Shown piece after piece: positions 6,405-42,298 of a DNA stretch of 42,298 nucleotides. The notes below the pieces were generated by a model, which saw nothing but the letters and a program-made list of their open reading frames with translations, made no database searches and was not told where the DNA came from. Position numbers and translations under genes: made by a program. The first letter of the stretch is position 1. Every line of letters starts with the position of its first letter. The stretch comes from Candidatus Poseidoniales archaeon (GTDB taxonomy: Archaea; Thermoplasmatota; Poseidoniia; Poseidoniales; Thalassarchaeaceae): NCBI GenBank assembly GCA_012959435.1, contig DUDF01000017.1:634-42931 (forward strand), read 5' to 3'.

Positions 6405-8405
6405 CTACTCGGCTACAGTCACAGTCGCTTGAATTTCCTTATCTTTCGCTTGCATCTGCTCCCACAGAAGTTCAGCGACATCCATCACTTCCATCTCTTT
6501 GCCAATTGCTTTCAGTCCATCTCCAACCATTACAGAACAGAAGGGGCATCCAACTGCTACAGTATCGCAGCCAGTAGCGGCGAGTTCCTTGGCGCGAATT
6601 TCGTTTACTCTCTTGTCAGGGTCTTCTTCTAGCCACATTTGAGCGCCACCCGCGCCGCAACAGAATGAATCTTGGCCGTGTCTCTCAACCTCTACATCTA
6701 CTCCTCCAATGAGTGAACGTGGTTCCTCAAGTACCCCACCAATACGCCCAAGGTAACAAGGGTCATGGTAGGTGATGTTGCGCTCACTTTCTTCCATTTG
6801 AGGTAACTTACCTTCCTTTTGCAGAAGTGCAAGGATCTCGCTGTGGTGCAGCACTTCTAAATCTTCAGCGCCGAAATCTTTGTACTCTTTTCCAAGCGTG
6901 TGGAAGCAGTGTGGGCATGAAGCAATAATTCTCTTGACACCCATTTCTTGGAATGTAGCGACATTCATTTCTGCCATCATTTGGAAAAGATATTCATTCC
7001 CCATACGACGAGCAGGGTCGCCTGAACAACCTTCTTGCATGCCAAGGATTCCAACATCTAATCCCGCTTCGTTGAGTAAGGAAATGGTGGCGCGGGCAAC
7101 TTTTTGGTTTCGTTCATCAAATGATGCAGCGCAGCCGACGAAGTAGATGTATTCCGCCTTTTCACCGATCTTGATATCTAATCCTTCAGCCCAATCGGCG
7201 CGCTCATGAGCACCAAACCCATACGGGTTAGAATTTGTTTCCATATTTCCAAGAGCGACATTGAATTGCTCAGGGTATTCCATTGCTTCCATCATCAGAT
7301 GACGGCGTGCTTCAGTTAATTTAGGCACGTGTTCAATGTAGACAGGGCAAGCATCAACACAGGCGTGACAAGTAGTACAAGCCCAAATTGCTTCAGGGGT
7401 GAAACGAGCAATAATACTCTCATTAGGTGTTTCACCTTTGAGAAGAATCGGTGCGTGCTCGTTAGCATAGTCTCTAACATTGTGAACAATTGTCATCGGG
7501 TTGAGAGATTTCCCTGATTCGTAAGCTGGACATACATCTTGACAGCGAACACAGGTGGTGCAAGCCCATCCATCTATCAGTTGGCGCCAAGTCAATTGGC
7601 TGTATTCACTAGCGCCAAAAGTTTCAATCTCAAGTTCCTCAAGTGGCACTGCTTTCCCATTTTCAGAAACCGCCATTGGTAGCATCTTAGCCATTGGTTC
7701 TGTGTCGTGGAAGAACACATTGGGGAAAGCCATTACAAGGTGCATATGTTTGGATAATGGTATGAGGATAAGGAATGAAGAGATTGCTAACATGTGAGCC
7801 CAGTAGGCTCCAATCACTACACTTGTGGAGAATCCTAATCCTGCTACCCAAGCGCCAATAGGCTCCCATGTTTGAGACGGTGATTCCATTGATTCAATGA
7901 TGAATGAGGTGCTCGTAATTGTGAAAATAAGGAATAAGATGAAATTCCCTTCAATTTGTGACTTCCCTTTCAATTTCTCAGGAGTGAATACCGCTCTGCG
8001 GAGGAATGCAGCGACACATCCAAGGAGTGCAATAAAATATCCAAATTCAACCATGCCATTCCATGGCCCAAGTAGGATTGCAGGTAGGATTTTTGTTGAG
8101 AATAAATTGGCTGTTGCAAGGTCAAACATGTCACTCCCTAGCATTAGGAATCCCCAGAACATCATTACGTGCATTGTACCTACAACTTTGTCACTAAGCA
8201 CCTTTTTCTGGCCAAGCCAGCCACTCAGCACTTCTTTGGAACGTACTCCCCATGAGTCGAAACGATTGTCGCTAGCACCAATCATTACCAATCGTGTAGC
8301 CTTTTGGACTTGATAGAGGAAAATACCCAGTGACCCTCCGCCAATGATTAGAAGAATCATCCAGCCAGGGATTCCAGAATAATTGAGCAATAGTGGATGT
8401 TCCAT
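6405..8405 (-). CDS. Membrane-anchored Fe-S oxidoreductase: b-heme NarI-like N-terminus, 4Fe-4S pair, CCG domains (HdrD / ETF:quinone-type)
   Basis: TM segments with His; CTTCVRCQDVCP and CTTCHACVDACP; CPHCFH, CCGAGGAQMW; ORF open to 8483, internal Met at 8405 preferred. Confidence 0.85.
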   Translation of the reverse strand: MEHPLLLNYSGIPGWMILLIIGGGSLGIFLYQVQKATRLVMIGASDNRFDSWGVRSKEVLSGWLGQKKVLSDKVVGTMHVMMFWGFLMLGSDMFDLATANLFSTKILPAILLGPWNGMVEFGYFIALLGCVAAFLRRAVFTPEKLKGKSQIEGNFILFLIFTITSTSFIIESMESPSQTWEPIGAWVAGLGFSTSVVIGAYWAHMLAISSFLILIPLSKHMHLVMAFPNVFFHDTEPMAKMLPMAVSENGKAVPLEELEIETFGASEYSQLTWRQLIDGWACTTCVRCQDVCPAYESGKSLNPMTIVHNVRDYANEHAPILLKGETPNESIIARFTPEAIWACTTCHACVDACPVYIEHVPKLTEARRHLMMEAMEYPEQFNVALGNMETNSNPYGFGAHERADWAEGLDIKIGEKAEYIYFVGCAASFDERNQKVARATISLLNEAGLDVGILGMQEGCSGDPARRMGNEYLFQMMAEMNVATFQEMGVKRIIASCPHCFHTLGKEYKDFGAEDLEVLHHSEILALLQKEGKLPQMEESERNITYHDPCYLGRIGGVLEEPRSLIGGVDVEVERHGQDSFCCGAGGAQMWLEEDPDKRVNEIRAKELAATGCDTVAVGCPFCSVMVGDGLKAIGKEMEVMDVAELLWEQMQAKDKEIQATVTVAE

Positions 8406-8515
8406 GTTCTCAACTCCGATTACCTGATGTTGGCTGCCTAGGACGAAGGGTAGTTTGGCCTTGAAACAACCGCCGTCACCCAATCGCTAATGGGCGTACC
8501 ACTCACCGGCCTATC

Positions 8516-9493
8516 ATGGTGACCGCTTCGGCCGCTGGTAAGGCGATACTATTCGGCGAGCATGCAGTTGTCTATGGCGAGCCAGCTCTCGCTGTGGCAA
8601 TCGATGCTCGGGTTAGCGTTTCATTAGAGCCATGTGATGGCGATTGGAAAATTGATGGATACCCGTTAGATAGCGGCCGTCATCCTCATGTGGTTTATTT
8701 GAGAAACGCTATTTTAGGCGAAGATTCACAACCTTACTCTATTCATGTCAATAGCGAATTATTTCCCGCTGCAGGACTTGGTTCATCGGCAGCCCTGTCA
8801 TCTGCTTGTAGTGCAGCAATGCTATCAACTATCGGCCAGCCGCTGGATCAAGAGAAAATAGCCACACTTTCTCATCTTGCTGAGGCAGCGGCGCAGTCAG
8901 GTAGAGCCTCTCCAACTGATACATCCACTGCTACACTTGGTGGTTGCGTATTTGTATCTGACAAAAAAGAAGAATCAAGTAAGTGGCGTTATACTAGAAG
9001 TTTGGATACACCAGAAGGTGAAAGAAACTGGGAAGTTCATTCAGTTAGCCTACCTCCTTCGGTTAGTGATTTATGGATTGTTGTGGGTTACACCGGGATC
9101 CACTCGCCTACTGGAGACATGGTCGCAGGGTTAGCAGAACTATTAGCAAAACATCCTGAAAAAATGACCGATATTTCTCGTATGGGCGAGGTGGCTAGAA
9201 ATGGTGTAGATGCACTTTCTAGAGGTGATTTCACACTGGTTGGTGAATTAATGGATGAAGCTCACCAACTACTCGCGGGTGTGGGGGTATCATGCCAAGA
9301 ACTTGATGTCATGGTTGAGGTTGCAAGGCGCTCATCCCTTGGAGCAAAGATGACTGGTGCTGGAGGTGGGGGATGCATGCTTGCATTAACGACAAATCCT
9401 GATGAGACTTCAGCCGCTCTTGAGATGCGCGGGGGGCGTGTATTAGTCACCCCGTTTGGCGCCCCGAGTGTTCGAATTGAAAATACCCCGTAA
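8516..9493 (+). CDS. mvk: Mevalonate kinase (GHMP family)
   Basis: AAGKAILFGEHAVVYGEPALAVAI, PAAGLGSSAALSSA, KMTGAGGGGCMLAL. Confidence 0.93.
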   Translation: MVTASAAGKAILFGEHAVVYGEPALAVAIDARVSVSLEPCDGDWKIDGYPLDSGRHPHVVYLRNAILGEDSQPYSIHVNSELFPAAGLGSSAALSSACSAAMLSTIGQPLDQEKIATLSHLAEAAAQSGRASPTDTSTATLGGCVFVSDKKEESSKWRYTRSLDTPEGERNWEVHSVSLPPSVSDLWIVVGYTGIHSPTGDMVAGLAELLAKHPEKMTDISRMGEVARNGVDALSRGDFTLVGELMDEAHQLLAGVGVSCQELDVMVEVARRSSLGAKMTGAGGGGCMLALTTNPDETSAALEMRGGRVLVTPFGAPSVRIENTP

Positions 9494-9494
9494 A

Positions 9495-9520
9495 ATCGAT
9501 TTTTCAATTGGAAAATTGAT
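9495..9520. terminator. 26-nt near-perfect palindrome directly after the mvk stop codon (possible terminator or protein-binding site)
   Basis: ATCGATTTTTCAATTGGAAAATTGAT; all position pairs complementary except two that would be G-U in RNA; stop TAA is 9491-9493. Confidence 0.4.
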
Positions 9521-9549
9521 GGTTACTTATGAAGTAGGCCGTCAACCCC

Positions 9550-9557
9550 TTTAAATA
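9550..9557 (+). promoter_or_regulatory. Archaeal TATA box upstream of tbp
   Basis: TTTAAATA about 25-30 nt upstream of ATG 9580, the spacing expected for a leaderless transcript. Confidence 0.5.
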
Positions 9558-9579
9558 GGGTTGGCAGGTGGCGGCGCTC

Positions 9580-10197
9580 ATGGTAAGTGATGAAGAACGC
9601 CTAACAGTCGTCAACGTAGTCGCCTCAACAAGGGTGGCAGAAGAATTGAATCTACCGGACATAGCAATTCAACTGAATTGTGAATATGAGCCGGAACAGT
9701 TTCCCGGTGTAGTATACCGTGTAGTAGATCCAAAGTTAGCGATTCTAATGTTCCGCTCTGGACGCGCAGTTTGTACTGGTGGAAAGAACAAGGCCAACAT
9801 TCACACAGGCATAGAGCGCATGATTAACGATCTTCGCGGTGCAGGTATTGAGACATGGGACAAAGAAGATGTTGAAATCGAAGTTCAAAACATGGTTGCA
9901 ACCTACGCCCTACACTACCCTGAAGATTACGATGGTTTTGACAAGTGGGAACCAGAAAAGGCACTCGCAGGAGAACCTCGCAAATTGAATCTAAACAATT
10001 TGACATTCCACCTTCCATTTGACAAGGTTGAGTACGAACCAGAACAATTCCCAGGTCTAATTTACCGACTTGATTACCCTAAGGTTGTCTGTTTGATTTT
10101 CGGTAGTGGCAAGATGGTGATTACCGGAGCCCGTCACAAGGACGAAATTCTTGAAGCAGTTCAAATTATTCAAGATGAACTGGCTGACCTACTTTGA
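9580..10197 (+). CDS. tbp: TATA-box-binding protein (TBP)
   Basis: Two saddle repeats: CEYEPEQFPGVVYRVVDPKLAILMFRSGRAVCTGGK and VEYEPEQFPGLIYRLDYPKVVCLIFGSGKMVITGA; ORF also open from GTG 9568. Confidence 0.97.
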   Translation: MVSDEERLTVVNVVASTRVAEELNLPDIAIQLNCEYEPEQFPGVVYRVVDPKLAILMFRSGRAVCTGGKNKANIHTGIERMINDLRGAGIETWDKEDVEIEVQNMVATYALHYPEDYDGFDKWEPEKALAGEPRKLNLNNLTFHLPFDKVEYEPEQFPGLIYRLDYPKVVCLIFGSGKMVITGARHKDEILEAVQIIQDELADLL

Positions 10198-10269
10198 GTT
10201 TCAAATTGGTTCAAGGTTCTGCGATGACACAAGGGTCTTGCTGATAACATAAAACCTACTCGGGTCTAT

Positions 10270-10671
10270 ATGGTGCAAACTTCTCTCTCTGATGCTCTCG
10301 GGGATATTGAAAACCCGAAAACCCACCTCGTTCTGGCGGAGTTTGTGAAATGGTTCCATAGTAGCATAGTCCTTTTCACAGCTATCGGTTGGATTCTACC
10401 TTGGTCACAGTCGTGGATACTCCTACTAATTTTGGTTCCAGTAATGAAATTTCATTGGGTTACCAATAACGGCATTTGTGCACTTACTACATTGGAACAT
10501 AAGTTACGAGGAAACCCCGGTGCAGGAACCACTGATCAAGTTGGATTTGTATTTCGTTTTGTATTTCTAATCTTAGGGAAATATACTCCCTCGCAAGAAA
10601 AAGTAAATAATTTTGCAGAATATTGTATGTACGTTGGATGGTTTATTGCAGCGTACCGACTATTCTTGTAA
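10270..10671 (+). CDS. Small membrane protein, possibly DUF2784-like (paralog 1)
   Basis: Hydrophobic segments; FHWVTNNGICALTTLEHKLRG resembles the Cys-P-L-T-x-x-E region of DUF2784; similar to the next ORF. Confidence 0.6.
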   Translation: MVQTSLSDALGDIENPKTHLVLAEFVKWFHSSIVLFTAIGWILPWSQSWILLLILVPVMKFHWVTNNGICALTTLEHKLRGNPGAGTTDQVGFVFRFVFLILGKYTPSQEKVNNFAEYCMYVGWFIAAYRLFL

Positions 10672-10684
10672 TGAAGTGATTTCG

Positions 10685-11041
10685 ATGAGGCCGATAGCGG
10701 CAAAGTTAGTGCGTATTCTTCATCTTCTAATTTTTATTTTCATAGCCATAGGATGGGCTCTTCCTTGGTGGCAAGTTTGGGTTATTCATGCCCCCTTCGT
10801 AATTTTCACTCGTATTCACTGGCGTCTAAATCAGCGCATCTGTATTTTCACTACTTGGGAGGTTCAACTCAAGGGTGAGGAACTTGTTGAGGAGCATGAG
10901 GAAGGATGGTTTGTCAAGGAGGTTTTTGAAAGTGTTACTGGCTGGCGCCCAAACACAATTTTCACTCGTCGGCTGATGGTGGTCTGGATGTACAGCGCAA
11001 TGGCGCTCAGTGTTGCAAGATTATGGCTATTTTCCGCCTAA
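10685..11041 (+). CDS. Small membrane protein, tandem paralog 2
   Basis: MRPIAAKLVRILHLLIFIFIAIGWALPWWQ...HWRLNQRICIFTTWEVQLKG aligns with the upstream protein; ORF open from 10613. Confidence 0.6.
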   Translation: MRPIAAKLVRILHLLIFIFIAIGWALPWWQVWVIHAPFVIFTRIHWRLNQRICIFTTWEVQLKGEELVEEHEEGWFVKEVFESVTGWRPNTIFTRRLMVVWMYSAMALSVARLWLFSA

Positions 11042-11108
11042 TAACTCATTTTTTCGCTGTATTGTTTGTATTCCGCATATTTCCAGTTGAACCCATCTGG
11101 GGGCATCA

Positions 11109-14100
11109 TTGATGAACACTAAACAGCCTGCCCATTACATGGGCAAAGAAAAGGTGCATGGTTTGCGGTTGAATTCTGCAATACTTTTAGTGCTGTTATT
11201 GTTGGCAAGTAATTTCACTAATTTCACCCAAAGTGAATCGCTACAGGATGATTTATCGCCCTCATCTTTCCTTGTATCTTCGAAATCCTCAGGAGGGGAT
11301 ATTGACGTTCCTTCATGGCGAGTTGGTGATAGTTGGGTATACGATGGATACTTCGATGTCGCTGCGTTAATTGCTAGTTCAGGTCAAAGTTCTAACATTC
11401 AGACCTTAACTGGTGACCTTGATATGTGGATTTCTGATATTGTCACTGTAACAACAGAAAACCAATCCACCCTAGCATACATCGTTCGCTCATCAGGACT
11501 TTTTGAGGCCAATGGTGTAAATCTTGGCGGATATAATGGAGATTTAGATGTCGACTATGATGGTACTGATTATGTCCGAGTTAGTGATCTTGCAACCATT
11601 TCAATGCAAATGAATTTGCTCGTAGAATTCTCTGCTTTTGCTGGTTTAATCAATATAGAGGTTGCAGATTTGCAGGTGGTTAATTCCTACAGCCCTCCAA
11701 GGGAAGATTATGATTTCCCACTAAGGGTTAGTGAGGCTTGGAGAAATAATTACACACAAACAACTGACTGGTCTGGCTCTTCGGATTATTTCACGCTCCC
11801 TGAAGATACATCATCCCACTCATCTAGCAATCATGCTGTTGTATCTCAAGGAAATCCAAATGTTGCTTATTCTGGATGTAGTAATTCATACAATGTCACA
11901 ACATTTGATGCATCAGGAATGAATGTGACATCATTCAGGTGGTGGTGTGCAAATGCGATGAATGATGCACATCGTCATTTCCAAGATGATATTGGGCTTG
12001 TAATTGATTTCAAGTTGAAATCATTCACCCCACAAACACGCCAAATAAATTTGGACGTAGAGTTGGAAACCCCTGCATGGATTTTAGATTCACCTCGTGG
12101 AGCGTGGGTGAATGTGACAAATCCCGCTGGTTTAGCAGTTTCAGGCCAAGCACTGCAGTGGAGATACGAAGCATCTGGCGTTACCCATTCTTTGACCACC
12201 GCAGCTAACGGCTCTGCTTTCATTGAATTCAATACGGGTAATGCAACTGACCCATCCCCCACTAATTTTGATTGGGCTAGCCACGGAATTATTGCTTGGG
12301 CCTCTGCTTCCAAGCAGGTGGGCGTGGATACTTTTACTCTAGATGATTCAATAATCACATTAGATTACAGGCCAAATGGCCAAGGAGTTTCTGTTGAGAG
12401 AACTAGAGATGGAACAACTGTAATTTTGAATCCAACGGTGGGTTACAACGCTGTACCAGGTGATTCAGTAATATTTTCAATACCGGTAGAAAATCTCGGT
12501 ATTTTAGCCGGTCCCGCTACAGAACTAATGGTGACGGGGCCTGACGGAACTACTAGCCGGTCATCAGTTTCCGAGATATCTGCTCTTGGTACTGTATGGG
12601 TACAGGCGTCTTGGATTGTCCCAGCCAATCAAGCGGTTGGAGTTGTGACGATTTCATTTGAAGTTGACCCAGATGGTTTGATGGTTGGTGACCAAAATCA
12701 ATCTAACAACATTGACACTTTTGATATGTTCATTGGTACTCTTCCAACAGCGGATTTAATTCAACCACCAGCAACAAAGACGTTGACAAACATCCACTTT
12801 GATGCAAGGAATAGTGTAGACCTAGATGGTGGTACCCCAGTATGTACTTTCGTGGTTGAAACATCAATAGCAACCAATGAAACATTCGAGGAAGAAGATT
12901 GTTTACTTGAGAACATGAGTTGGTCAGATGATGGTACATATCGTGTATGGCTCACGGTAACAGATGATGAGAATGATCAAGATTCAACTGTTGTTGATGT
13001 TGAAATCCTTAACCGTGCACCTTGGGTTAATGTCTCCACACAAAATAGTGTAATTTCAATTCCTGTTGAATCTTCGGTGATATTCTTTGCTACAGATTCA
13101 GGTGACCTTGATACTCTGAATAACGATGCACCGGTAGATTTCCTCTGGCAATTGCCTACACGTTCTGATGGCCAATCCTATGTTTGTGAAAGCGGAGTTC
13201 AAGTTTCACCTACCTGTGAGGTAACTCCTATGGAAGAAGGGATTTTCACAGCGGAAGTCATGGTTCAGGATGATGATGGTGCCGTTACAATGGCTGATTT
13301 CAATCTAGTTGTCACAAATATCGCTCCAACTGATGCAACAATGACCATGTGGGATGGGGATGTGGAAATGACTGATGATAGAATCCCTGCTATCTGGCAA
13401 GTAAATGAGGACCAAGTAGTCACTCTGAATGGAACAGTTCATGATTCCTTCAACGATATGGATAGTCTATCTTGGGGGTGGCAACCAGACCGCGACATTG
13501 ACCCAAATTGGTATGTTGAAACAATTGGAGAAACATCGGCCATTGATGTTAGTTGGAATGAAACAGGTACTCATGTAATCGCTATGGAAGTTCTAGATGA
13601 TGATGGCGAAAGCAGTAATGTTGTGAACGGTTGGGTTGAAGTGACAAATGTGCGCCCAGTAGTGCAGCAGTTCGGCAACCAAATGCCACTTGGCGAAGAC
13701 CGCGAGTTCTCATTGACGGGCACCTACAATGATACTCCATCAGATATTGATTCACTACAAGTTTGCTGGGATGTTGATTTTGAAATTGATTTAGATGACA
13801 ATGGAGATACAATGGATGATTGTGATTTTGTGGGGGCTGATATCACCTACCATTGGTCAACTGCTGGTGAGAAAATAATCCGTTTCCATGTTACTGATGA
13901 TAATGGTGATTCAGATAGTGCTTATGTCAATATTTCAGTAGTTAACTTGCGTCCTCAAGCAGCTGTATCAGTTGAGAAGGACAGCATCCTAGTTGGAGAG
14001 GAGTGGGTCGTTTGGACTAATGACACAACTGATTCAGTATCAGATATGGACCAATTAATTTACAGTTGGGATTTAGACATTTTTGTTGATGCAGATGACG

Positions 14101-30419: not shown

Positions 30420-33400
30420 TTACTCAATTTGACTAGAAGTCTCCTCTACTGGATTCGGGTTATCGGAATGCTCCAAATCTAGGTAGAATGACCCATCCTC
30501 TTGCATCCACCATCTACTGCCATCCTGAAGGAAATACCATGTTACTCCTGTTGAAGTGTCGTAGGTGCCTCCACTAGGGAGTTGTTCGTGGTTTTCAACA
30601 TAGGTGAGCGTAGGTGTTCCCCCTTCTTGGTCCAAGGTTTCAGTAGGTGGCGATATTTTGGAGTCATCTGAAGATATTTCTGAGGTGGCTTGGGCCCCAT
30701 CATCTTCATTTTCAAATTCATCATCTTCCCCTGGCACATTTACCTTGAACATCAAGTAGAGCCCTATTGCTGCTAAACCTGCAAGAAGTAGGGCGAGGAT
30801 GACAATTATTGCGACTCCACCAGTACTTGCTCCCCCTGAGTTAACCGAGGTATTAGATGTATTATCATCAACATGGGAATTTGGATTTGCAGGTGGATTA
30901 ATAGTTAGATTGCTAATGGTTTGTAGCCCAACATTATCAGTTACTCTGACATAGAGGTCAACATCGCTCCAGTTTGACCAAATAATTGCGCCGTTGGCTG
31001 GATATTCTTGCCAACTAACATTATCCCAAGACCATTCAATGATAGAAATCCCGCTACCTTCACCATCATTCAACTGTAAACTAACTTCCAGTACAGGTGG
31101 GCCCGCATATTGTGTACTCAATTGTGTAATTGAAAGGGCAGGTGTGGTCCTATCAATTTTCACCCACATTGCATCTGCATCAGATGGATTCCCTACTACG
31201 TCCACTGCTCTGACTTCAATGGAATGCCTCCCATCAGTGAGTGATGTGACATTCAAAGAAGTTGATGTGGTAATGACATCAGACCACAATCCTCCAGCCC
31301 AGCGGATTTGATAGTGAGAAAAGCCAGAACCGCCATTATCCGTGACTGTGCTCCAAGAGATTTCTACTTCTGGGCCTTCAACCCAATCAGTTAACTGGGT
31401 AAATGTTGGTTTTCCTGGTGGTTCTAAATCCGGGACTTCACTTGCGTTTACGGTGACTATTTTCAGTGTGTAAGGACCGCCTGTTTCAGTCTCTAACTTT
31501 GAGATACGAATGTGATATATTCGAGACGTATTACCTAAATCTTCATTTGTTAGTTGAAGATTAATCCATAAAATACCTGAATTTAGTGTACCATTGTCTA
31601 ATGAGTTTGTTCCGTTTAACAGTTCAATTGTTAAGGGGCTACCATCATTTTCAATTGAGACACCTAAGCGTTTACCGCCATGAAGCATGACTGCAAACCA
31701 ATCTTGATTATCACCATCCATCAGACAACCTTCAATCGTCATAGATTCTACATCGACTCCAAGTTGAGTTGCTGAAGCGCGAGCCGCTGCCGCATCTGAG
31801 GTGCCATTACCATCTGTCGTTGGGTTAATGCAACCACCAGTTGTTTCATCAACAGGGTCTGGTGCATCTTCACTCACCACTAAAGGATTTGCAGAGATGG
31901 CGATGTTGTTACTTTCTTCATCTTCTTGATGCTGTCCACTGGTATCGACCTTTACAATAGCCCACCATGTGCCCTTGTCATTTTCTGAAAGTTGGACTTG
32001 AGTATTATCTTGAGTAGAGTCGCCTGCACCAAGGCTGCTTACTGTATAAGATGTGATAAGTCGGTCATTGCTATCCCAAATATTGTTTTGTGAGATCCAT
32101 ACTTCAACATCAAAAGTTGCTTCTTCAACACCTAGATTTTGTATCTCCCATTGTAAGGTTACGGTTTGCCCGGGCTCAGCTGAAGTTGGACCAGTTATCC
32201 ATTTTGCCAACAAATCATTGGTGGGATTTGTTACTTGAAAAGAGGTTCCAAATCCTTCATTATCACTTTCATCTGACTCTGGAATAGCACTAGCATCATC
32301 TACTACTACAAAAATGCGATATGAGCCGGAAGGAGAGGTTGGAAGTTGTACAGTTCTAGTGATTTCAACATTGGACCCAGATGCAAGCGAAGTGATATTC
32401 AATGTTTCTAGCAAGTAATCTGGATGGCCAACAGGGTCAAGGATTTCAGCAAATATTGCTAACTGATGCCTCCCGGCATTTGCCCCACCAGCGTTCTCAA
32501 TCACCACAGATATTTCTACGGATTGTCCAAGCATGGATGGGCCAGGGCTACTAACCGAAACAACTCGTAAATTGGGCTGTAAAATACAAACTTGATTTGA
32601 GGCTGCAAGGGCATTGTCATTATCATTTAATTCAACAACAACATCATTCATGTCAATAATGATTCCATAATACCAACAACCAGAACCGATGTTTGAAGGA
32701 ATCGTGACGCTAAGAGTGTCGCTAATGGTTGAACTTGCCCCAATATTGCTGATAGTTGCAGCCCCAAGGTGGGTGTCAGATGTGTCAATTGTCGGATTTG
32801 AAGAGAGGAATAAATCAATTGGGAAATTATTCGCTTCGCCCATACCAGTATTCTCAAATGAATATGATAGAGTCACGGTTTGCCCGGGTAGTACTGATGT
32901 TGGTCCGCTTAGTGATGTTGGCATGAGGTCAGGAGTGCAGTCAAGCACAGTTAATTGTTGAGATGAGGTTTCGTAGACATTGTTGTTCTCATTAGATTCA
33001 GAAATTTGAGACATTGAGTCAACAAAAACCGCTGCAAAATAATTTCCAGCAGTCATGGATGCAGGAATAGTTCCACTAACTTGTAAGTTGTAAGATGACA
33101 CTCCGCTACTTCCGCTAGCATGGCCTATACTTATCCATGAATTGGAGGCACCAGTTTGTGAGAAAAGGGCTTCAAAATAATGTGAGCCAGCATTGACATT
33201 CCCTTGGTTTGAAACTGCAACATTGATTGTCACTAATTCTTCGGTACAAATTGTAGAGGTTGATGAATCAACCGACATAGAGTCCGCTTGTAGGTCCGGG
33301 GTGGCAACAGTAATTGAGATTGAGTTTCCTGAAATGGCATTGTTATTCTCATCTCCTTCTGTTACGTAATCTGAGGTATCAACAATAATTCCCCAGTAAT

Positions 33401-34952
33401 AACTTCGACTTGACATACTACTTGGGATTGTAACACTTAGTTGGCCAGTTCGGTAAGAACCTCCATTTATTGATGAAGCATAATTTGAAGAGCCAAGAAC
33501 GGTATCTGATGAAGTGATAGTTGAGTCAGTTGAAAGGTATGCTTTCCAATAGAACCAACCTGATGAATCATCACCATCATTATCAATTCTCCAGTTGAGA
33601 TTGACCGTATCCCCCGTGTATGCCGATGAAGGCCCACTTGGATTATCTGGGACTAAGTCCGCCTGCTCTTCGACGTCAAGGCGTCCGGTGTCGGCGACGA
33701 TATTGTTCGTCTCGTCGAGTTCGGTAACCGAGGTGCGGCTGTCAGCAATCATGCCGAGGTAGTAGTATCCTGGATTGATCCCAGTTGGAATCTGAACGCT
33801 GTACTGAGTCCCTGAAGCGTAGTAGCCGGGAGATATGCTGCTCCGACTGAATTCGTCGATGTAGATGTCGCTTGTGGTGATTGTGCGGTCTGTTGAGAGG
33901 TATAGTTCCCAGTAGAACGAGCCGCTGTAGTCGTTGCCGTCGTTTTCAATTCGGTAGGTTACCGAGATGGTATCACCCATTACAACAGAACTTGTTGATG
34001 TACCTACACTATCAGCAACCAAATCAGGCAAGTCATCTTCAATCGTAATCTGGTTACTGCATGTGTAAGCATTGTTTGTCTCACTCTGCTCATCAACATC
34101 CGTTCTCACATCGATTAAGAATCCCCAATAATATGTTCCGGGGTTCATTGAACTCGGAATACGATTAGAGGTGCTTAGAGTGTCAGTGCTGTAACTTCCA
34201 CCATAGATATTAGATTCATATTGGTCACTTCCAACCTGTTCATCATTATTGGTTATAGTGCTGTCAGTACTGAGATACATTGCCCAATAAAAAGTTCCAG
34301 AGTCGGCAATATAGTTTCCTCCCGGGTCATTATCAAAACCGACAGTTATTGTTGAGTCAAGTGTGTCACCCACCACCCCCGTAGTCGGAGCGCTGCAACT
34401 TCGACCGGTCAAGTCGGGCTGCTCGTCGATGGTGACTCGACCGGTATCGTGTTTGTCGTTGTTGTTCTCGTCTGACTCGCTGACTTGATTGTTGATGTCA
34501 GCGAGGGCGCCGACATAGTAGCGTCCTCCGGTGATAGTAGTTGGGATCTGGACGCTCTTTGAGCCACTTGAGTAACTGCTGCCAGCAGAGATTGACGACT
34601 TGTAATAGGTGTCGAGTTCTATGTCACTGGTCGTGATGGTGGTGTCTGTTGAGAGGTAGATTCCCCAATAGAACGAGCCAGAGGAGTCCGTGCCTTGATT
34701 TTCTATTCTGACACTCACATATTCTGTCTCACCGGCTTCAGATGTGCTCCAACTGGCTGATATGTAGTCAACAATTAGGTCAGAATTACCTCTGCCTGAG
34801 GTGGCCCCAAGTTCGGGTAATTTAGTTACAATAGATTCTATTTCAGAAGTTGATTCACTATTGTTTTGAATAGTTGGAGCAGGGATATTACTGAGCAACA
34901 TTAGGGTGAGGAAAAGCGTCCCAACGAGGGTTGCAATCCTGATACCTGACAC
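30420..34952 (-). CDS. Giant surface protein with multiple CARDB repeats, PPC-like domain, Ig/FN3-like domain, C-terminal TM and short cytoplasmic tail
   Basis: Repeated PDL...S...G..V..SV.IEN.G....G.F.W..YLS.D..I...D units ending in DENNN; PPC-like DNQDWFAVMLHGGKRLGVSI; TM GGVAIIVILALLLAGLAAIGLYLMF; GTG start with TATA-like element about 27 nt upstream. Confidence 0.85.
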   Translation of the reverse strand: MSGIRIATLVGTLFLTLMLLSNIPAPTIQNNSESTSEIESIVTKLPELGATSGRGNSDLIVDYISASWSTSEAGETEYVSVRIENQGTDSSGSFYWGIYLSTDTTITTSDIELDTYYKSSISAGSSYSSGSKSVQIPTTITGGRYYVGALADINNQVSESDENNNDKHDTGRVTIDEQPDLTGRSCSAPTTGVVGDTLDSTITVGFDNDPGGNYIADSGTFYWAMYLSTDSTITNNDEQVGSDQYESNIYGGSYSTDTLSTSNRIPSSMNPGTYYWGFLIDVRTDVDEQSETNNAYTCSNQITIEDDLPDLVADSVGTSTSSVVMGDTISVTYRIENDGNDYSGSFYWELYLSTDRTITTSDIYIDEFSRSSISPGYYASGTQYSVQIPTGINPGYYYLGMIADSRTSVTELDETNNIVADTGRLDVEEQADLVPDNPSGPSSAYTGDTVNLNWRIDNDGDDSSGWFYWKAYLSTDSTITSSDTVLGSSNYASSINGGSYRTGQLSVTIPSSMSSRSYYWGIIVDTSDYVTEGDENNNAISGNSISITVATPDLQADSMSVDSSTSTICTEELVTINVAVSNQGNVNAGSHYFEALFSQTGASNSWISIGHASGSSGVSSYNLQVSGTIPASMTAGNYFAAVFVDSMSQISESNENNNVYETSSQQLTVLDCTPDLMPTSLSGPTSVLPGQTVTLSYSFENTGMGEANNFPIDLFLSSNPTIDTSDTHLGAATISNIGASSTISDTLSVTIPSNIGSGCWYYGIIIDMNDVVVELNDNDNALAASNQVCILQPNLRVVSVSSPGPSMLGQSVEISVVIENAGGANAGRHQLAIFAEILDPVGHPDYLLETLNITSLASGSNVEITRTVQLPTSPSGSYRIFVVVDDASAIPESDESDNEGFGTSFQVTNPTNDLLAKWITGPTSAEPGQTVTLQWEIQNLGVEEATFDVEVWISQNNIWDSNDRLITSYTVSSLGAGDSTQDNTQVQLSENDKGTWWAIVKVDTSGQHQEDEESNNIAISANPLVVSEDAPDPVDETTGGCINPTTDGNGTSDAAAARASATQLGVDVESMTIEGCLMDGDNQDWFAVMLHGGKRLGVSIENDGSPLTIELLNGTNSLDNGTLNSGILWINLQLTNEDLGNTSRIYHIRISKLETETGGPYTLKIVTVNASEVPDLEPPGKPTFTQLTDWVEGPEVEISWSTVTDNGGSGFSHYQIRWAGGLWSDVITTSTSLNVTSLTDGRHSIEVRAVDVVGNPSDADAMWVKIDRTTPALSITQLSTQYAGPPVLEVSLQLNDGEGSGISIIEWSWDNVSWQEYPANGAIIWSNWSDVDLYVRVTDNVGLQTISNLTINPPANPNSHVDDNTSNTSVNSGGASTGGVAIIVILALLLAGLAAIGLYLMFKVNVPGEDDEFENEDDGAQATSEISSDDSKISPPTETLDQEGGTPTLTYVENHEQLPSGGTYDTSTGVTWYFLQDGSRWWMQEDGSFYLDLEHSDNPNPVEETSSQIE

Positions 34953-35060: not shown

Positions 35061-38000
35061 TTAAGGAGTAGTAAATTGGCGGGTAGAATCATCCCACCAG
35101 CGGCCATTTCCATTTTCTACTGTTAGCCGCCAGTAGTAATCGGTTGACGGGAATAACCCATTTAGTGGATGACTATTTCCACCTGTGCTCAAATTACTTC
35201 CAATGGAGTCACAGAAGTCCCAATTCCCCTGCACAACGCCACCATCCACTAGTCCCCAACACACCTTCCACGTGGTGTTTGTTCCATTGTCATAAACCAT
35301 CCATTCAACATCAGCCTTGGTAGTCGTAACATTACTTGCCACCTCAAATTTAGTTTCAGGGTTGTATTCATTTACCCATCCACGGAGAGGGTCGGTATTC
35401 CAAACTGGTAAGTGGTCAACAGCATTCTGGGTTGGTTCGGTAATTGGGAATCCCCAGGCGGCAAGGAATGAGGTCATGTTGTAACCGGTTTTTATCGAGA
35501 TCCATTTTGCATACTCATTGAATTCTGCTGAGTCCCCAGATGGCTGGGTTGTAAGGTTGTAATAGTACTCTTGATAGGCCGCAGTAATTGGTTCCCAACC
35601 GAATTCTTCTTGGATTTGGAGATAGGTTTCTAGTGCCGTCCAAACACTCCATTGGGAGATTTGTGAGCCTCCTGAAAAATAAGTTTCAACCCGGTTTATC
35701 ATACTCTGAGTGTTCAATGCACTATGTCCTGCTCTCAGGTCTTTTCCAACCAACTCAGTCATCAGTTTTACCGAATGAATATTGCATGTTGTTTCTGTAG
35801 TTCCGGGGAGGGTTGATGACATCCATTGGTGGTTATGTCCTAATTCATGGAACATCCCCCAATCCCCATTAGCTCGCATGTAACTTCCGTTCACCACGCC
35901 GCTGACACTTGCTGTGTGGGCCATGAAAGGGTATCCTGAATGCATCCAACCTGCCGAAATTTGCACATCAAATACTGCTCTTTCAACTCGAGGCCAAGGC
36001 GTGTATCCACTGAGATTATGTTCCATTTGCAGGGCCTCATCCCAGAAATCCATGGTTTCGTTGGGGTGGTCAAGATTTCTGATGTAAGATGATGGGACCG
36101 TTAGAATGAACCAATCAGATTCAAGTTCTGCGATTGGCGCCGGTGAATTTCTTAGCACCATGTTCCAATGTTGAACATTTGTTACTCCGTGAATATAGCG
36201 TGGCATGTCAACAGCATTTTCGATTGTGACATTGAAGTCTCCGAATGTTGAGCCTGCCGGGATAGTCACATAAATTGGTCCGCCAAAGGAGTTACCAACT
36301 TGCATTGATGTGTTCTTGACAGACCACCCACGAGTGATTTTTGGATGCCTGTCAAGGGTTGACTTACCCCATAGGGAATCAGAATGTGCGCCGATTAGAA
36401 TTGAGGCGCCCTGGCTCACCATAGATTGTGGGATTGTGATATTGATGACTTCTCCAGCAGGTGCATACATTCCGGTTGCCATTCTGCCCGAAGACCTTGC
36501 ATTTGCATAACCAAATTGACTTGGCAAACCTGCAAAAGTTCCGTTAATCAATACGGTCCTCAGAGGCCTAGGAGAGGTTGGGTTGACTGAACCTGGGAAC
36601 GAACTGTGTGAAGGATGAGGCTCAAGTTCCTCTGCTGGTAATTTGAGCATTAATTGCTCTTGGATATTGAGAATTAAATCATCAACTTCATCGGCATTCA
36701 TTGTGTATTGGTTGTTTGAGTCAATATGAATCCAGCCAGTATCGTTACTCATCTTGCGTAGGGAATTCCATACACCGGTGTAATCTAATGGTAGATTGGA
36801 GACACATAGTGAGACCGTTTTAGCACCGATAGTAGCATCATTTTGGGTCATCATTTGAGTACCACCCACATGGTCAACGATAAGAGGAAGTGCGCCATGC
36901 AATCTGTAAAGGTCACCCCATTCATTGGCATTCACTGCAAAGGTGGCAGAACCTGATGATGTAGATACAAATAGCCCGGTAGATTTAGCAATTTTATTTC
37001 CTGGATAATTGTGTGCAGCATCACTATTTGAGTACGACCAATACCATGCGTGACCACCCATGATTAATCCTCCACCATCTTCTAACCAAGCAGTTATGGC
37101 GAGGTTTTCGCTGTCAGAATATGAGTTCCAGAATTCAGTCACAAAACAATCCAAGTTTACTAGGTCTGCAGTCGTGGCACTCGTTACTACCGCGTAACCC
37201 TGTGAAAGCAGCGTATTCTGCCAGCCGTTGAAGGATGATTCTAGCCCAACAGTTTTTCCATTACCATCACAAACCCAATCAAGCGCATTGAGGCTTAGAT
37301 TGGCACGATTATCACTTCCAGTTCTTGCAACCATTGTTTCATGGCCATAGCCGACAATCCTACCTTTACCGGCGTGCGAAGCAGATGAAATAGGACGGTT
37401 ATCCCAGTCAATTCCAAGACTAAAAGACCATTCACCTATTGGGAGAATAAGTGAAGGCCAAGCCCCACCATAATCAACAGTACCGATTGGCCGCTTGGTT
37501 AATTCATTGTGATCTTGTGCTAAATCATGGATAGCGAAGGTCAGATTCAATTCTAATTCACCTCCTGAATTGTTAGCCCAAATGGTGTGGGTTGTCCAAG
37601 CGTGGCGAGATAAGTTAAGCCCATCTCTTCCTATTGGAGAACCAAAGATTGTACCATTGGTTGGAGATATGAATAGCCCGTCAGGTAGTGATGGCTCCAC
37701 TTCCCAAGTATCAATTGATGGTCCGTTGTTGATTGCTGAAATTGAAACCGAGTTATTCGCTTCTAGAATATGTTCTAATCCTCCATCCCAAGAGATATTA
37801 TTTGGTGTCATGTTGGCGATTCTGATGTCCAGCCAAGTTGAGAAAGAACCTCCTGTATTATTAGCCCAAATGGTGTGATTGACCCATGGTGTTATTTCGT
37901 CAGCACTACCTCCTAGTGTCCCGTTTTGGGTATCAAGTTGTAGTCCGGATGGAAGGGGTGGTTCAATACTCCACGAGACAGCTGTACCGCCACTTGTTGT

Positions 38001-39119
38001 TGGCGTAACATTCAGTGTTGATACGCCAAATACTAGGTCAAAATCTTGGCTACCGTAATCAATGGATTCAACTGGTTTATCATTGACTGTTATTTGTAAA
38101 ATTATTGCTGCGTATCCTCCTGAATTATTGGCATAAACAAAGTGTGCTGAGCGCTCGTAGAGGGCATCAGGGGTCCCATATATCCGTCCTGTAACATATG
38201 AAATGTTCAGCCCTGATGGTAGTGCTGGGTCAACTTCCCAACTCAATACATCTCCTCCATTGTGACTAGGGCTCATATCATTCATTTGCTCTCCAAGAGT
38301 GAGAAACAAATCTTCTTCAAGATAGGTGATTAAACTAGGTGTTTGGTCGTGCACAGTGATGGTTATCTCAGTTGAATCACTCCCTCCATCGTTACTACCT
38401 GTGATCGTGTAAGTTGTGGCTGGCATGAGGGTAGTAGGTGCGCCAATAATTGCCCCATCATCACGTAATTCAAGCCCTGGTGGCATCGGCGGACTGGATT
38501 CCCAAGAGGTCGGTTCGCCCTGTTCATAATCAGCGAAAATAGTGAACGGGTTGCCTTTGGTTAGAATGTGCGTTGATGGTAGGTAGTTCAAAGAAAAAGG
38601 TGCCATATCTACCACTATTACCTCCAATGAGAGGTTTGTTGAACCGCCTTTGTTGGTGACTTCTACATCGCATGTTGTTATGCCAATTTCATTGGCTATG
38701 ATGTCCCATGATGGTTCGTTATCACCTTGTCCTTGACGTAATTGGGCAGCAGAATCAGAGCAGTTGATGGCGAATACAAATGTAGGGTCACCTTCAATGC
38801 TCCAGTTTAGCCCAGTGATCGAGCCGAGATTAACTTGTATCGTATCCGATTCAAAAGATGCATTACTTGGTGGTATGATATTATCACATCTAATTACAAC
38901 AGACAAATCATCTCCAAAGATTTCACGCTGATTATCAGCGCAAATAATTGGCTGGGTTTTGTTTCCTTCATCAATGGGTATCGTGGGTGTATCATTTCCT
39001 TGGTCGGTTGGTGGTGAATCGGGGGTTCGATTAATCAAATAGAATCCAGCACCCCCCAAACTAACTAGCAAAAGCAGTGCTGAAACAGCAATTGCAAGCC
39101 CCGCATTTCCATCTGCCAT
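35061..39119 (-). CDS. Membrane-anchored M60-like metallopeptidase with Ig-like (He_PIG-type) repeats, GATase-like domain and C-terminal FN3-like domain
   Basis: N-terminal anchor MADGNAGLAIAVSALLLLVSLGGAGFYLI; repeats LPSGL...G.I.G.P...WANNSGG; zinc motif GMFHELGHNHQWMSSTLPGTTE; ORF open to 39338. Confidence 0.8.
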   Translation of the reverse strand: MADGNAGLAIAVSALLLLVSLGGAGFYLINRTPDSPPTDQGNDTPTIPIDEGNKTQPIICADNQREIFGDDLSVVIRCDNIIPPSNASFESDTIQVNLGSITGLNWSIEGDPTFVFAINCSDSAAQLRQGQGDNEPSWDIIANEIGITTCDVEVTNKGGSTNLSLEVIVVDMAPFSLNYLPSTHILTKGNPFTIFADYEQGEPTSWESSPPMPPGLELRDDGAIIGAPTTLMPATTYTITGSNDGGSDSTEITITVHDQTPSLITYLEEDLFLTLGEQMNDMSPSHNGGDVLSWEVDPALPSGLNISYVTGRIYGTPDALYERSAHFVYANNSGGYAAIILQITVNDKPVESIDYGSQDFDLVFGVSTLNVTPTTSGGTAVSWSIEPPLPSGLQLDTQNGTLGGSADEITPWVNHTIWANNTGGSFSTWLDIRIANMTPNNISWDGGLEHILEANNSVSISAINNGPSIDTWEVEPSLPDGLFISPTNGTIFGSPIGRDGLNLSRHAWTTHTIWANNSGGELELNLTFAIHDLAQDHNELTKRPIGTVDYGGAWPSLILPIGEWSFSLGIDWDNRPISSASHAGKGRIVGYGHETMVARTGSDNRANLSLNALDWVCDGNGKTVGLESSFNGWQNTLLSQGYAVVTSATTADLVNLDCFVTEFWNSYSDSENLAITAWLEDGGGLIMGGHAWYWSYSNSDAAHNYPGNKIAKSTGLFVSTSSGSATFAVNANEWGDLYRLHGALPLIVDHVGGTQMMTQNDATIGAKTVSLCVSNLPLDYTGVWNSLRKMSNDTGWIHIDSNNQYTMNADEVDDLILNIQEQLMLKLPAEELEPHPSHSSFPGSVNPTSPRPLRTVLINGTFAGLPSQFGYANARSSGRMATGMYAPAGEVINITIPQSMVSQGASILIGAHSDSLWGKSTLDRHPKITRGWSVKNTSMQVGNSFGGPIYVTIPAGSTFGDFNVTIENAVDMPRYIHGVTNVQHWNMVLRNSPAPIAELESDWFILTVPSSYIRNLDHPNETMDFWDEALQMEHNLSGYTPWPRVERAVFDVQISAGWMHSGYPFMAHTASVSGVVNGSYMRANGDWGMFHELGHNHQWMSSTLPGTTETTCNIHSVKLMTELVGKDLRAGHSALNTQSMINRVETYFSGGSQISQWSVWTALETYLQIQEEFGWEPITAAYQEYYYNLTTQPSGDSAEFNEYAKWISIKTGYNMTSFLAAWGFPITEPTQNAVDHLPVWNTDPLRGWVNEYNPETKFEVASNVTTTKADVEWMVYDNGTNTTWKVCWGLVDGGVVQGNWDFCDSIGSNLSTGGNSHPLNGLFPSTDYYWRLTVENGNGRWWDDSTRQFTTP
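35836..35850 (-). other. HExxH zinc-binding motif (HELGH) of the M60-like peptidase
   Basis: Translated reverse strand CAT GAA TTA GGA CAT. Confidence 0.85.
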
Positions 39120-39177
39120 TGTAAATGGCAGTAGCGAGTAGGTCAATATGATGCCGCCGTATCGGACATTGACGAAG

Positions 39178-40008
39178 ATGCGTGTGGCAGTGACGGGAGC
39201 AGCCGGATTAATCGGCGGAGTGGTCTTTGACAAGTTAGTCACAGACGGGCACGAAGTGATAGGAATTGACCGCCCACATGATGATTGGATGGAGGCGGGC
39301 AGGAATACCGATGATACAACTGCACCAAGCCGCGTCACCCATCATTTTGACTTAGCAGAAGCAACAGATTCAGATTGGCAGATGATGCTTGACGATTGTG
39401 AATTAGTAGTCCATTTAGCAGCAGATGCAAACCCCTCAAATAGCGATGAGAGTATGTTGAGAAACAACATTTTGGTTTCAACGAATTTAATGCGTAATGC
39501 TCAGGTTGCAGGTGTACGACGAGTGGTGTTATCCTCATCTGGTCTTACTCAGGTTGGACTTGAGAGTGAACTCTTGCCAGGAGGTTCTCTTGAGGGCCAA
39601 CTTATCGGGGTGGGCCACGGCACTTCTACGACTAGCACATACGGTGAATCCAAGGTGTTCGTTGAGAGACTAGGCCAGTATTACTCGAAAGGGCATGGGA
39701 TTGAATGTATTGTCGTGAGAATTGGAACTGTAATTCCCAATGAGTCTGAGCATTGGGAAAGAGGCGGTAGACTCCAAGCAACTGCATTTTTACAAGCAGA
39801 TGTCGCACACTTCTTTGCTGCCGCAGTGCAAGTTGATTTCTCTTCTTGGGATTCGCAATCTTGCGAGGGCCATCCAAATGTCCCAGGATTCCTTTTGACT
39901 GCTGCTCAATCCGATTCACCTGCCCGGTTCATCGACTTAGAACCGGGTATTACTGCTCTTGGTTGGACTCCGATAGAGTGGCCAAGTGGGCCGGAGAATC
40001 TACCATGA
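39178..40008 (+). CDS. NAD-dependent epimerase/dehydratase family protein (extended SDR)
   Basis: MRVAVTGAAGLIGGVVFDKL, VVHLAADANPS, STYGESKVFVE; ORF open from 39148. Confidence 0.88.
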   Translation: MRVAVTGAAGLIGGVVFDKLVTDGHEVIGIDRPHDDWMEAGRNTDDTTAPSRVTHHFDLAEATDSDWQMMLDDCELVVHLAADANPSNSDESMLRNNILVSTNLMRNAQVAGVRRVVLSSSGLTQVGLESELLPGGSLEGQLIGVGHGTSTTSTYGESKVFVERLGQYYSKGHGIECIVVRIGTVIPNESEHWERGGRLQATAFLQADVAHFFAAAVQVDFSSWDSQSCEGHPNVPGFLLTAAQSDSPARFIDLEPGITALGWTPIEWPSGPENLP

Positions 40009-40032: not shown

Positions 40033-42123
40033 ATGAAAGGCCCATTCACACTCGGAATTGATGTTGGTACTAGCGCCACAAAAGTGCTACTGCTAGATGA
40101 TTCAGGCGAATGGGAAATGGGCTCTTGGCCAACTTCTGAGAGTATCTGGGATAATCTCCAGCACTGGCTTTCGGGCCGGGGCGAATCTGTTGTAAGGGTC
40201 GGTATTACTGGACATGGCCCATCTGCTATTGTGATTCGAAATGGAGAGGTTATTGGATCCAATATATCATGGTTTGATGATTCCTTAGAAGGATGTGAAC
40301 GTGAGGTGACAAATGACCACATTTTGACTAGTAGCAGGGCATGGGTTCCATCCCGCTTAGCCCAATGGGAAAAGGAGAATGGCCCGATAGGTGATGGCGT
40401 TCCGGTACAACTCAAAGACCTGCTTAACTGGGAATTAACTGGAGCGGTGGGTCGTGATACACGCTCCATGCGGGGATATTCAGGTGAAGGAAATTTCTTC
40501 CATCCTGATGAGGTAATCGGCCTTGTCAATAACGCTGGCTCAAAGATTTCTGAAATTAGTATTGGCGCTGAGGTAATTTGTGGCTGTGACGATTTAACAG
40601 CAGGTGTATTGGGGCTAAATGCCAATCAAGGAGATTTGTTTAATCTCGCAAATACTAGTGAACATGTTGGCCTAGTTGGTGGCCAGCCGATGGAGGGATT
40701 GAGCTGGTTACCTCCAATTGGGACATTACCATCACTTTGCTATCTTTCAACATCAACAGGAGGTAAAACACTTGCAGAAAAGTTCAACGTTCAACCGAGT
40801 GCAGAAGCGGTGAAAAACTTCATTTCCCAATTGGAAAATGAAAAAAACACTGGAATTAGTAATGATGTTAAGGCCCCAGCATGGGCTGCAATTAGAGAAA
40901 TAAACCAGCCAATTGAGGAGGTTAGGGATATGTTCCAAAGTAGTGAGATGTTGATTGGCGGTGGCTTGGCATTAATTCCACAAATCGTTGAATCAAGGGG
41001 GGCGATACTTCGTGCTGGTCAAGAGGTCAGTGTTTTGGGTGTGGCCAAACTAGCCCAGCGCCCACTGGCAGTGATATTTGGTGCAGGTAAAGTAGGCAGA
41101 GGTTTCCTAGCCCAACTACTGTTACGAGCAGGTTGGCGAATTCACTTTGTAGACTCAAATTCAGAGTTGGTAAATGCGCTGAAGATTGGCAATTATGCAA
41201 TCAGCAATTTGGCTACTGGTGAAGTCGATATAATTTCAGAATATACGGTCTCTATTGATGAGTGGAGATTGGAAGAGGCATCACTCATTCTTACATCATT
41301 AGGTGCTAATGGTTTAGCAAATTGGGCGCAATCTGTTTGTGATATTGATAGAGAAATTGACATCATATTAGCTGAGAATCATCCTGCTCCTGCTAAACTA
41401 GTAAGGGAGCACATCATTAGTTCAAAAGTCGGAGTCGCTCAAGCACAGGTATTACGCTCCTGTATTGAGCCAACAGCACAACAGGTAGCAGATTTTGGTC
41501 CTCTAATTGTTCAAGTTCAAGATCATTGGACATTACCCCTTGACGCTGATGCACTTATTCACCCTGAATTAGTCTCAAGTGTTCCTGGATTTGAAGCCAA
41601 ACCTAACTTTTCAGTAGAGTTGACAAGAAAATTGTACACCTACAATGCAATCAATGCAGCAGTATGTTATCTTGGAGCAGAAAGAGGATATGTTTGGTTA
41701 AGTGATGCTGCAAATGATTCACAAATTGCCGAGTTAGCGACTCAAGTAGGAGTTGAATCATCGGCTGCTTTGGTTGCAGAATTTGGATTTGATGAGGGTG
41801 AACAGCGAGATTGGTCGGGCATGGCTTTGACCAAATATCAGGATGTAACCATTCGTGACCCGATTGAAAGAAATGCTCGAGACCCGATTAGGAAATTGGG
41901 TTTACATGACCGCATCTTAGGTCCACTACATTTGTGCATCAAACATGGTTTGCCGCATGATGCCTTAATTCAAACAATGAAGAGTGCTCTTAACTACAGA
42001 GAACCAAGCGATTCAGCAGCGATAAAATTGGGTGCATTTGTTGATGAATTTGGTGCTTGGGGCGCGCTACAAAAAGTTGCACGTGGTCTCGATGATTCTC
42101 TTGTGAATTACATTGGTTGGTGA
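40033..42123 (+). CDS. Fusion protein: FGGY-type carbohydrate kinase (N-terminal half) plus mannitol-1-phosphate 5-dehydrogenase-like domain (C-terminal half)
   Basis: FTLGIDVGTSATKVLLLDDSG, SNISWFDDSLEG, CGCDDLTAGVLG, MLIGGG; then LAVIFGAGKVGRGFLAQLLLRAGWRIHFVDSN and RKLYTYNAINAAVCYLGAERG. Confidence 0.85.
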   Translation: MKGPFTLGIDVGTSATKVLLLDDSGEWEMGSWPTSESIWDNLQHWLSGRGESVVRVGITGHGPSAIVIRNGEVIGSNISWFDDSLEGCEREVTNDHILTSSRAWVPSRLAQWEKENGPIGDGVPVQLKDLLNWELTGAVGRDTRSMRGYSGEGNFFHPDEVIGLVNNAGSKISEISIGAEVICGCDDLTAGVLGLNANQGDLFNLANTSEHVGLVGGQPMEGLSWLPPIGTLPSLCYLSTSTGGKTLAEKFNVQPSAEAVKNFISQLENEKNTGISNDVKAPAWAAIREINQPIEEVRDMFQSSEMLIGGGLALIPQIVESRGAILRAGQEVSVLGVAKLAQRPLAVIFGAGKVGRGFLAQLLLRAGWRIHFVDSNSELVNALKIGNYAISNLATGEVDIISEYTVSIDEWRLEEASLILTSLGANGLANWAQSVCDIDREIDIILAENHPAPAKLVREHIISSKVGVAQAQVLRSCIEPTAQQVADFGPLIVQVQDHWTLPLDADALIHPELVSSVPGFEAKPNFSVELTRKLYTYNAINAAVCYLGAERGYVWLSDAANDSQIAELATQVGVESSAALVAEFGFDEGEQRDWSGMALTKYQDVTIRDPIERNARDPIRKLGLHDRILGPLHLCIKHGLPHDALIQTMKSALNYREPSDSAAIKLGAFVDEFGAWGALQKVARGLDDSLVNYIGW

Positions 42124-42176: not shown

Positions 42177-42298
42177 ATGGCGCGGAAGAGGCGGGTGAAG
42201 AAGAGCGGGCCGGGCGGCCCTCCAAGTGGACCAGCATCGGGTCCTCCTAGTTCAAAATCTGGCCCACCTTCAAGAGGCCCTCCAAGTGGTTCTTCAAG
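42177..42298 (+). CDS. Low-complexity basic Gly/Pro/Ser-rich protein, partial (runs off the window edge)
   Basis: MARKRRVKKSGPGGPPSGPASGPPSSKSGPPSRGPPSGSSS; exact 14-nt DNA repeat GGCCCTCCAAGTGG at 42216 and 42276. Confidence 0.5.
   Translation, partial: MARKRRVKKSGPGGPPSGPASGPPSSKSGPPSRGPPSGSS

Follow-up and report, generated by a model that had tools for sequence, protein, structure and literature searches.

No cultured representative exists for the archaea of Marine Group II, which abound in the surface ocean, so the sugars that they eat are inferred from genomes. In the main text of Rinke et al. (2018, PMC6461757), mannitol-1-phosphate 5-dehydrogenase is a lineage-specific trait of Poseidoniales; this is very probably the same dehydrogenase as the one analysed here, and that text mentions neither a fusion to a kinase nor a gene cluster nor an altered signature. 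The known mannitol-1-phosphate dehydrogenases (MtlD; PDB 3h2z, 5jnm) have in common with our protein the fold, the NAD Rossmann motif, an Asn-Lys-Asn triad and an arginine phosphate pocket, but here a kinase is attached. In the bifunctional MtlD of Acinetobacter (PDB 7ocn), a phosphate-transfer domain is likewise fused ahead of a mannitol-type dehydrogenase; that partner, however, is a HAD phosphatase serving mannitol synthesis (PMC6291793), whereas a kinase has the opposite chemical sense. A survey of FGGY kinases covers the canonical two-domain architecture only and does not mention mannitol (PMC3245297), and the main text of an archaeal fusion survey mentions neither FGGY nor mannitol (PMC11237513). 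We found no description of the present fusion in the open-access literature, subscription papers and supplements apart.

The window, a 42,298-nucleotide stretch of a Poseidoniales MAG, carries at 40033..42123 (+) a reading frame of 696 aa with an ATG start and no internal stop, the end coordinate taking in the stop codon. The sequence-only reading had described this uninterrupted frame, and the motifs it quoted were present. The frame encodes a fusion of an FGGY-type kinase and a mannitol-dehydrogenase-superfamily domain and is single-copy in its genome. The in-frame fusion is genuine and conserved in Poseidoniales: homologues, fused or split into adjacent genes, were found in 36 of 319 genomes of this order (Marine Group II), across six genera in two families (g1, g2 and g9 in the family of the window; g19, g21 and g22 in the second). 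All genomes compared were MAGs, and the functional readings below come from sequence and models. With an alpha-mannosidase, a sugar dehydrogenase and this two-in-one kinase/dehydrogenase inherited together, the locus forms a compact testable unit.

The dehydrogenase half and its altered signature

The C-terminal half (41062..42120, +; residues 344-696) is an NAD-dependent mannitol-dehydrogenase-superfamily domain. Its Rossmann start, AVIFGAGKVGRGF, lies at residue ~345 (nt ~41065), right behind the last helix of the modelled kinase (residues 332-342) and close to the position of about 41050 given from the letters alone. Both Pfam domains of the superfamily scored above their gathering cut-offs (PF08125, 67.1 versus 30.7 bits; PF01232, 28.8 versus 27), and MtlD of Shigella (3h2z) was matched by sequence at E=1.4e-30, with MtlD structures also matched by fold. 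The original assignment of this half to the MtlD type was thus upheld. In contrast to MtlD, all NCBIfam cut-offs for mannitol-1-phosphate dehydrogenase (M1PDH) were missed, the best model scoring 131.3 bits against a cut-off of 356.

In the S. aureus enzyme, SaM1PDH, the catalytic triad is Asn119/Lys200/Asn205, the phosphate is bound by Arg283, Arg287 and Arg294, and His208 binds mannitol (PMC6623548). The triad corresponds to N449, K533 and N538 and the three arginines to R616, R620 and R627, all of them conserved in 27 of 27 aligned sequences; in the window protein the phosphate pocket comprises R613/R616/R620/K621/R627. The motif K-x4-N-x2-H is the signature of polyol-specific long-chain dehydrogenases (PMC4022671). 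Here, unlike in MtlD, it reads K-x4-N-x2-N in all 27 sequences, with the substrate-binding His208 replaced by N541 (41653-41655). A second difference from MtlD is an invariant EN-H-xxPA motif (residues 447-454; 41371-41394), which places a new histidine, H450, directly next to the catalytic N449. The gain of H450 together with the loss of histidine at 541 may represent a swap of active-site roles. Because the signature His is Asn in every aligned sequence, we do not file the domain as a mannitol-1-phosphate dehydrogenase, and its substrate may not be mannitol-1-phosphate. This one protein bears on the correctness of the 'mannitol' label published for these archaea.

By family resemblance, D374 suggests a preference for NAD. 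The earlier proposal that the product of the kinase serves as substrate of the dehydrogenase is plausible, since the phosphate pocket is intact; this is the best sequence argument for such a link. A model of the full fusion reached a pTM of 0.51, which says nothing on the packing of the two halves.

Gene neighbourhood and candidate pathways

Immediately upstream, an Azf-like SDR-family NAD(P) sugar dehydrogenase is encoded at 39178..40008 (+; the listed ORF opens at 39148, but 39178 is the likely start), ending 24 bases before the fusion starts. Of the 36 genomes that carry the fusion or the split genes, 34 have this SDR gene, against 0 of the 283 others (Fisher p=9e-44, shared ancestry ignored). 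The two genomes without it, G102 and G313, both have their homologue at a contig start. In profile searches the SDR resembled aldose and sugar-phosphate dehydrogenases; sequence searches against the PDB returned nothing for it at E<=1e-10.

Downstream, at 42177..42298 (+), a GH38 alpha-mannosidase gene begins, and the window ends within it. Another contig of the same genome, C20, opens with the remainder of a matching GH38 gene, and an orthologue lies at 8139-11861 of locus L031. GH38 genes were found in 33 of the 36 genomes versus 6 of 283 others, four of these six being weak matches in g4 (Fisher p=3e-35, shared ancestry ignored). The best PDB matches were family-38 hydrolases (5kbp/3lvt) and an alpha-mannosidase (2wyh); the protein also matched a mannosylglycerate hydrolase model, under its cut-off.

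The wider neighbourhood includes a galactonate-type dehydratase gene, which 20 of the 24 module-bearing genomes have, versus 1 of 40 that lack the module, the sole match among the latter having 32% identity. The G105 protein scored 315.9 bits, above the curated galactonate dehydratase cut-off of 311. This gene clusters with a PfkB kinase (KDG/KDGal type), a KDPG/KDPGal-type aldolase and then a putative transporter. The dehydratase-kinase-aldolase set adjoins SDR-fusion-GH38 in G086 (g9) and lies ~14 kb from the fusion in G105 and G103 (g1), while in the genome of the window the corresponding genes are on contigs C20 and C111. A lactonase-like gene occurs within the g1 locus. The SDR, GH38, dehydratase, KDG-type kinase and KDPG-type aldolase together point to alpha-mannoside/sugar-acid metabolism, and the locus looks like one that degrades glycans containing mannose and has an oxidative branch for sugar acids.

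On the other side of the SDR, a secreted-type Peptidase M60 (enhancin-like) with Ig-like repeats is encoded at 35061..39338 (-; PF13402, 192.6 bits). Its gene is a neighbour in eight loci, is divergent from the SDR in g1/g2, and its product might supply glycopeptides. The window also encodes, at 30420-34952 (-), a protein of 1510 aa with CARDB repeats and a DUF4832 domain. Between GH38 and the dehydratase, G105 encodes kinases of the GHMP type, one of which is fucokinase-like, as well as a nucleotidyltransferase (L088 2112-3011, 5491-6468 and 6530-7276); these may form a sugar-salvage branch. The same locus encodes an 878-aa protein (8258-10891) with an M28 peptidase domain ahead of a region like the putative membrane transporter of the locus. 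Beside the cluster in g19/g22 we observed CD36-family matches of ~840-900 aa (L050 2119-4821, L057 8314-11022 and L058 3463-5988), which are unexpected for archaea.

Our main reading, to which we give a probability of roughly 55%, is that the fusion is a bifunctional catabolic enzyme, kinase and NAD dehydrogenase in one, which acts on a mannose-related C6 compound as part of an alpha-mannoside-utilisation locus. The compact FGGY-type kinase would use ATP to place a phosphate onto an end carbon of the compound; the NAD-dependent domain would then grip the new phosphate with R616/R620/R627 and oxidise a hydroxyl close to the opposite end, giving a ketone. The enzyme would serve a locus with the GH38 mannosidase and SDR sugar dehydrogenase, to which the wider neighbourhood would add an aldonate dehydratase, a KDG-type kinase and a KDPG-type aldolase. 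The analysis establishes that the fusion exists and is conserved, which fold each half has, which catalytic and phosphate-binding residues are kept and which genes go with it; the order and direction of the reactions, the substrate, the cofactor preference and any channelling are inferred. Our leading guess for the substrate, which is tentative and somewhat short of an even chance, is D-mannitol, converted via mannitol-1-phosphate to fructose-6-phosphate. In 13 genomes with the module, searches for the 6-phosphogluconate dehydrogenase family came up empty, which mildly favours fructose-6-phosphate over 6-phosphogluconate as product; the PGI family was likewise not found in these 13 genomes, which tips the balance neither way. 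No mannose-to-mannitol reductase was identified, which we counted against mannitol.

The alternative that survives best is that the kinase and dehydrogenase act on mannonate made from mannose freed by GH38, which we consider unlikely but well worth keeping in view. The SDR would oxidise mannose to mannonolactone/mannonate, the kinase would form 6-phospho-D-mannonate, which is mannitol-1-phosphate with COO- in place of CH2OH, and the dehydrogenase would oxidise C2 to give 2-keto-6-phosphogluconate. The linkage of SDR and GH38 to the fusion is consistent with such a route, as is the change of the signature His to Asn. The likeness of the SDR to aldose and sugar-phosphate dehydrogenases, together with the lactonase-like gene, suggests sugar acids, and the KDPG-type aldolase of the locus fits as well. 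Furthermore, gluconate kinases are known among FGGY enzymes (PMC4880283), and one of them was the top, though weak, PDB profile match of our kinase half (E=0.006). However, use of the product would require a further reductase and dehydratase, the dehydratase of the locus is of the galactonate and not the mannonate type, and the lack of the 6-phosphogluconate dehydrogenase family in the 13 module genomes also argues against it. More broadly, there is a minor chance that the fusion phosphorylates and then oxidises a sugar acid derived from mannose (6-phospho-mannonate or a like compound), with the His-to-Asn change marking an undescribed dehydrogenase activity; if true, this would be a new way of using mannose.

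The sequence-only reading had also allowed for the reverse direction, towards polyol synthesis. In that case the kinase would act on fructose or another ketose, and the dehydrogenase would reduce the product to a polyol phosphate, with mannitol serving as a compatible solute or building block. Ketoses are frequent substrates of FGGY kinases (PMC3245297, PMC4880283) and M1PDHs operate in both directions (PMC6623548), but the neighbouring genes are catabolic and no phosphatase was found among the annotated neighbours, so we regard biosynthetic use as improbable. Taken as a whole, the earlier interpretation was partly supported, its polyol substrate and its channelling staying conjectural.

A compact FGGY-type kinase

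The N-terminal half (40033..41061, +; residues 1-343) diverges strongly from known kinases in sequence. It scored 13.9 bits against Pfam FGGY_N (PF00370; cut-off 28.8), no FGGY_C match was listed for it, and it stayed under every curated cut-off in Pfam and NCBIfam, whose profiles gave no substrate call; sequence searches against the PDB gave weak matches only. Nevertheless, 11 of 12 homologous kinase halves matched FGGY_N at E<=1 (best 8.3e-5).

An AlphaFold model of the kinase half, built with 25 homologous kinases, reached a pLDDT of 91 and a pTM of 0.89. Foldseek paired it with PDB structures of FGGY kinases at a probability of 1.00 and E-values as low as 1.7e-15; among them were LsrK, xylulokinase, glycerol kinase and SePSK, a sugar kinase of Synechococcus, and TM-scores normalised by query length reached 0.76. 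At the level of fold, the proposed FGGY assignment was therefore right: the model has the two-lobe ASKHA fold of these enzymes and, like them, a catalytic Asp and nucleotide motifs, although identity is ~15%. D187 aligned with the D of 'agttD' in 5htn, which is D221, the catalytic Asp of SePSK (PMC4880283), and together with D10/G12 of the N-terminal D-x-G phosphate loop it was invariant in 25 kinases. The nucleotide site includes T208/S209 and GGG309-311, of which T208 and GG310-311 were invariant in fused and split kinases alike.

The suspicion that the C-lobe is abbreviated was also correct. The matched FGGY chains in the PDB have ~420-500 aa, whereas the compact fused clade has 305-350 aa (305 aa in g9, where a whole fusion measures 659 aa); the kinase parts of g21 fusions reach ~412 aa and separately encoded kinases 466 aa. 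Judged from the model, the N-terminal half, its C-lobe trimmed, is a compact kinase of the FGGY type and is predicted to phosphorylate a sugar with ATP. The heavy trimming and the divergence from FGGY profiles could instead reflect an ASKHA domain that no longer catalyses and serves the dehydrogenase as a sensor or regulator. This is a rather poor prospect, as D187, T208 and GG310-311 are unchanged throughout and G001/G003 hold a full-length separate kinase gene at the same place. The protein would offer structural work a very small FGGY-type kinase.

Spread of the fused frame and apparent kinase replacement

The fused form was found in 32 of the 36 homologue-bearing genomes, some copies being truncated by contig ends, and the joined frame runs without stops in five genera of both families. 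Codons 300-365 cover the junction; when the window was compared with G104, they showed 24 synonymous and 6 non-synonymous changes. The junction is thus under purifying selection, and the joined protein is kept by selection, which bears out the claim of a real kinase-dehydrogenase fusion.

In the remaining four genomes (G001, G003, G279 and G280), kinase and dehydrogenase stand as adjacent separate genes; in G003 the stop codon of the kinase gene and the start codon of the dehydrogenase gene share bases (TGATG). Separate halves in close relatives, combined with a lost stop or frameshift here, had been named beforehand as a refutation. The first part is borne out, as such genes do occur in G001 and G003, of the same family as the window, but they form a distinct arrangement with a different, longer kinase, and a frameshift origin does not hold. 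That a missing stop or frameshift joined two genes during sequencing or assembly is practically ruled out, despite these four split pairs, by the 32 independent genomes with the same joined frame, the purifying selection across the junction and the position of the unfused kinases in another clade than that of the window.

In the tree analysis, which came with a long-branch warning, the split g2 genes grouped with the fused g2 gene (100/99) in the dehydrogenase tree, whereas in the kinase tree the split g2 kinases fell with those of g19 (94/87) and g21. At the DNA level, G002 (fused) and G003 (split) were 93% alike through the SDR and intergenic region until the kinase start and 86-90% alike across the dehydrogenase and beyond, while most of the kinase was unalignable. 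This fits a history in which the kinase part within g2 has apparently been swapped for a full-length separate kinase gene. This replacement suggests that compact fused and full-length separate kinases share one job. The loci compared within g2 were L012/L059 (G003) and L013/L060 (G001) versus L005 (G002).

Outside Poseidoniales, phylum-wide searches for relatives gave weak matches only. A viral or mobile source was rejected, as no relative was encoded among viral contigs; the best matches in phage records (e.g. Salmonella) covered the dehydrogenase half only, at ~28% identity. As a separate observation, G470 carries an unrelated stand-alone dehydrogenase that retains the signature His and adjoins a gene read as UxaA-like.
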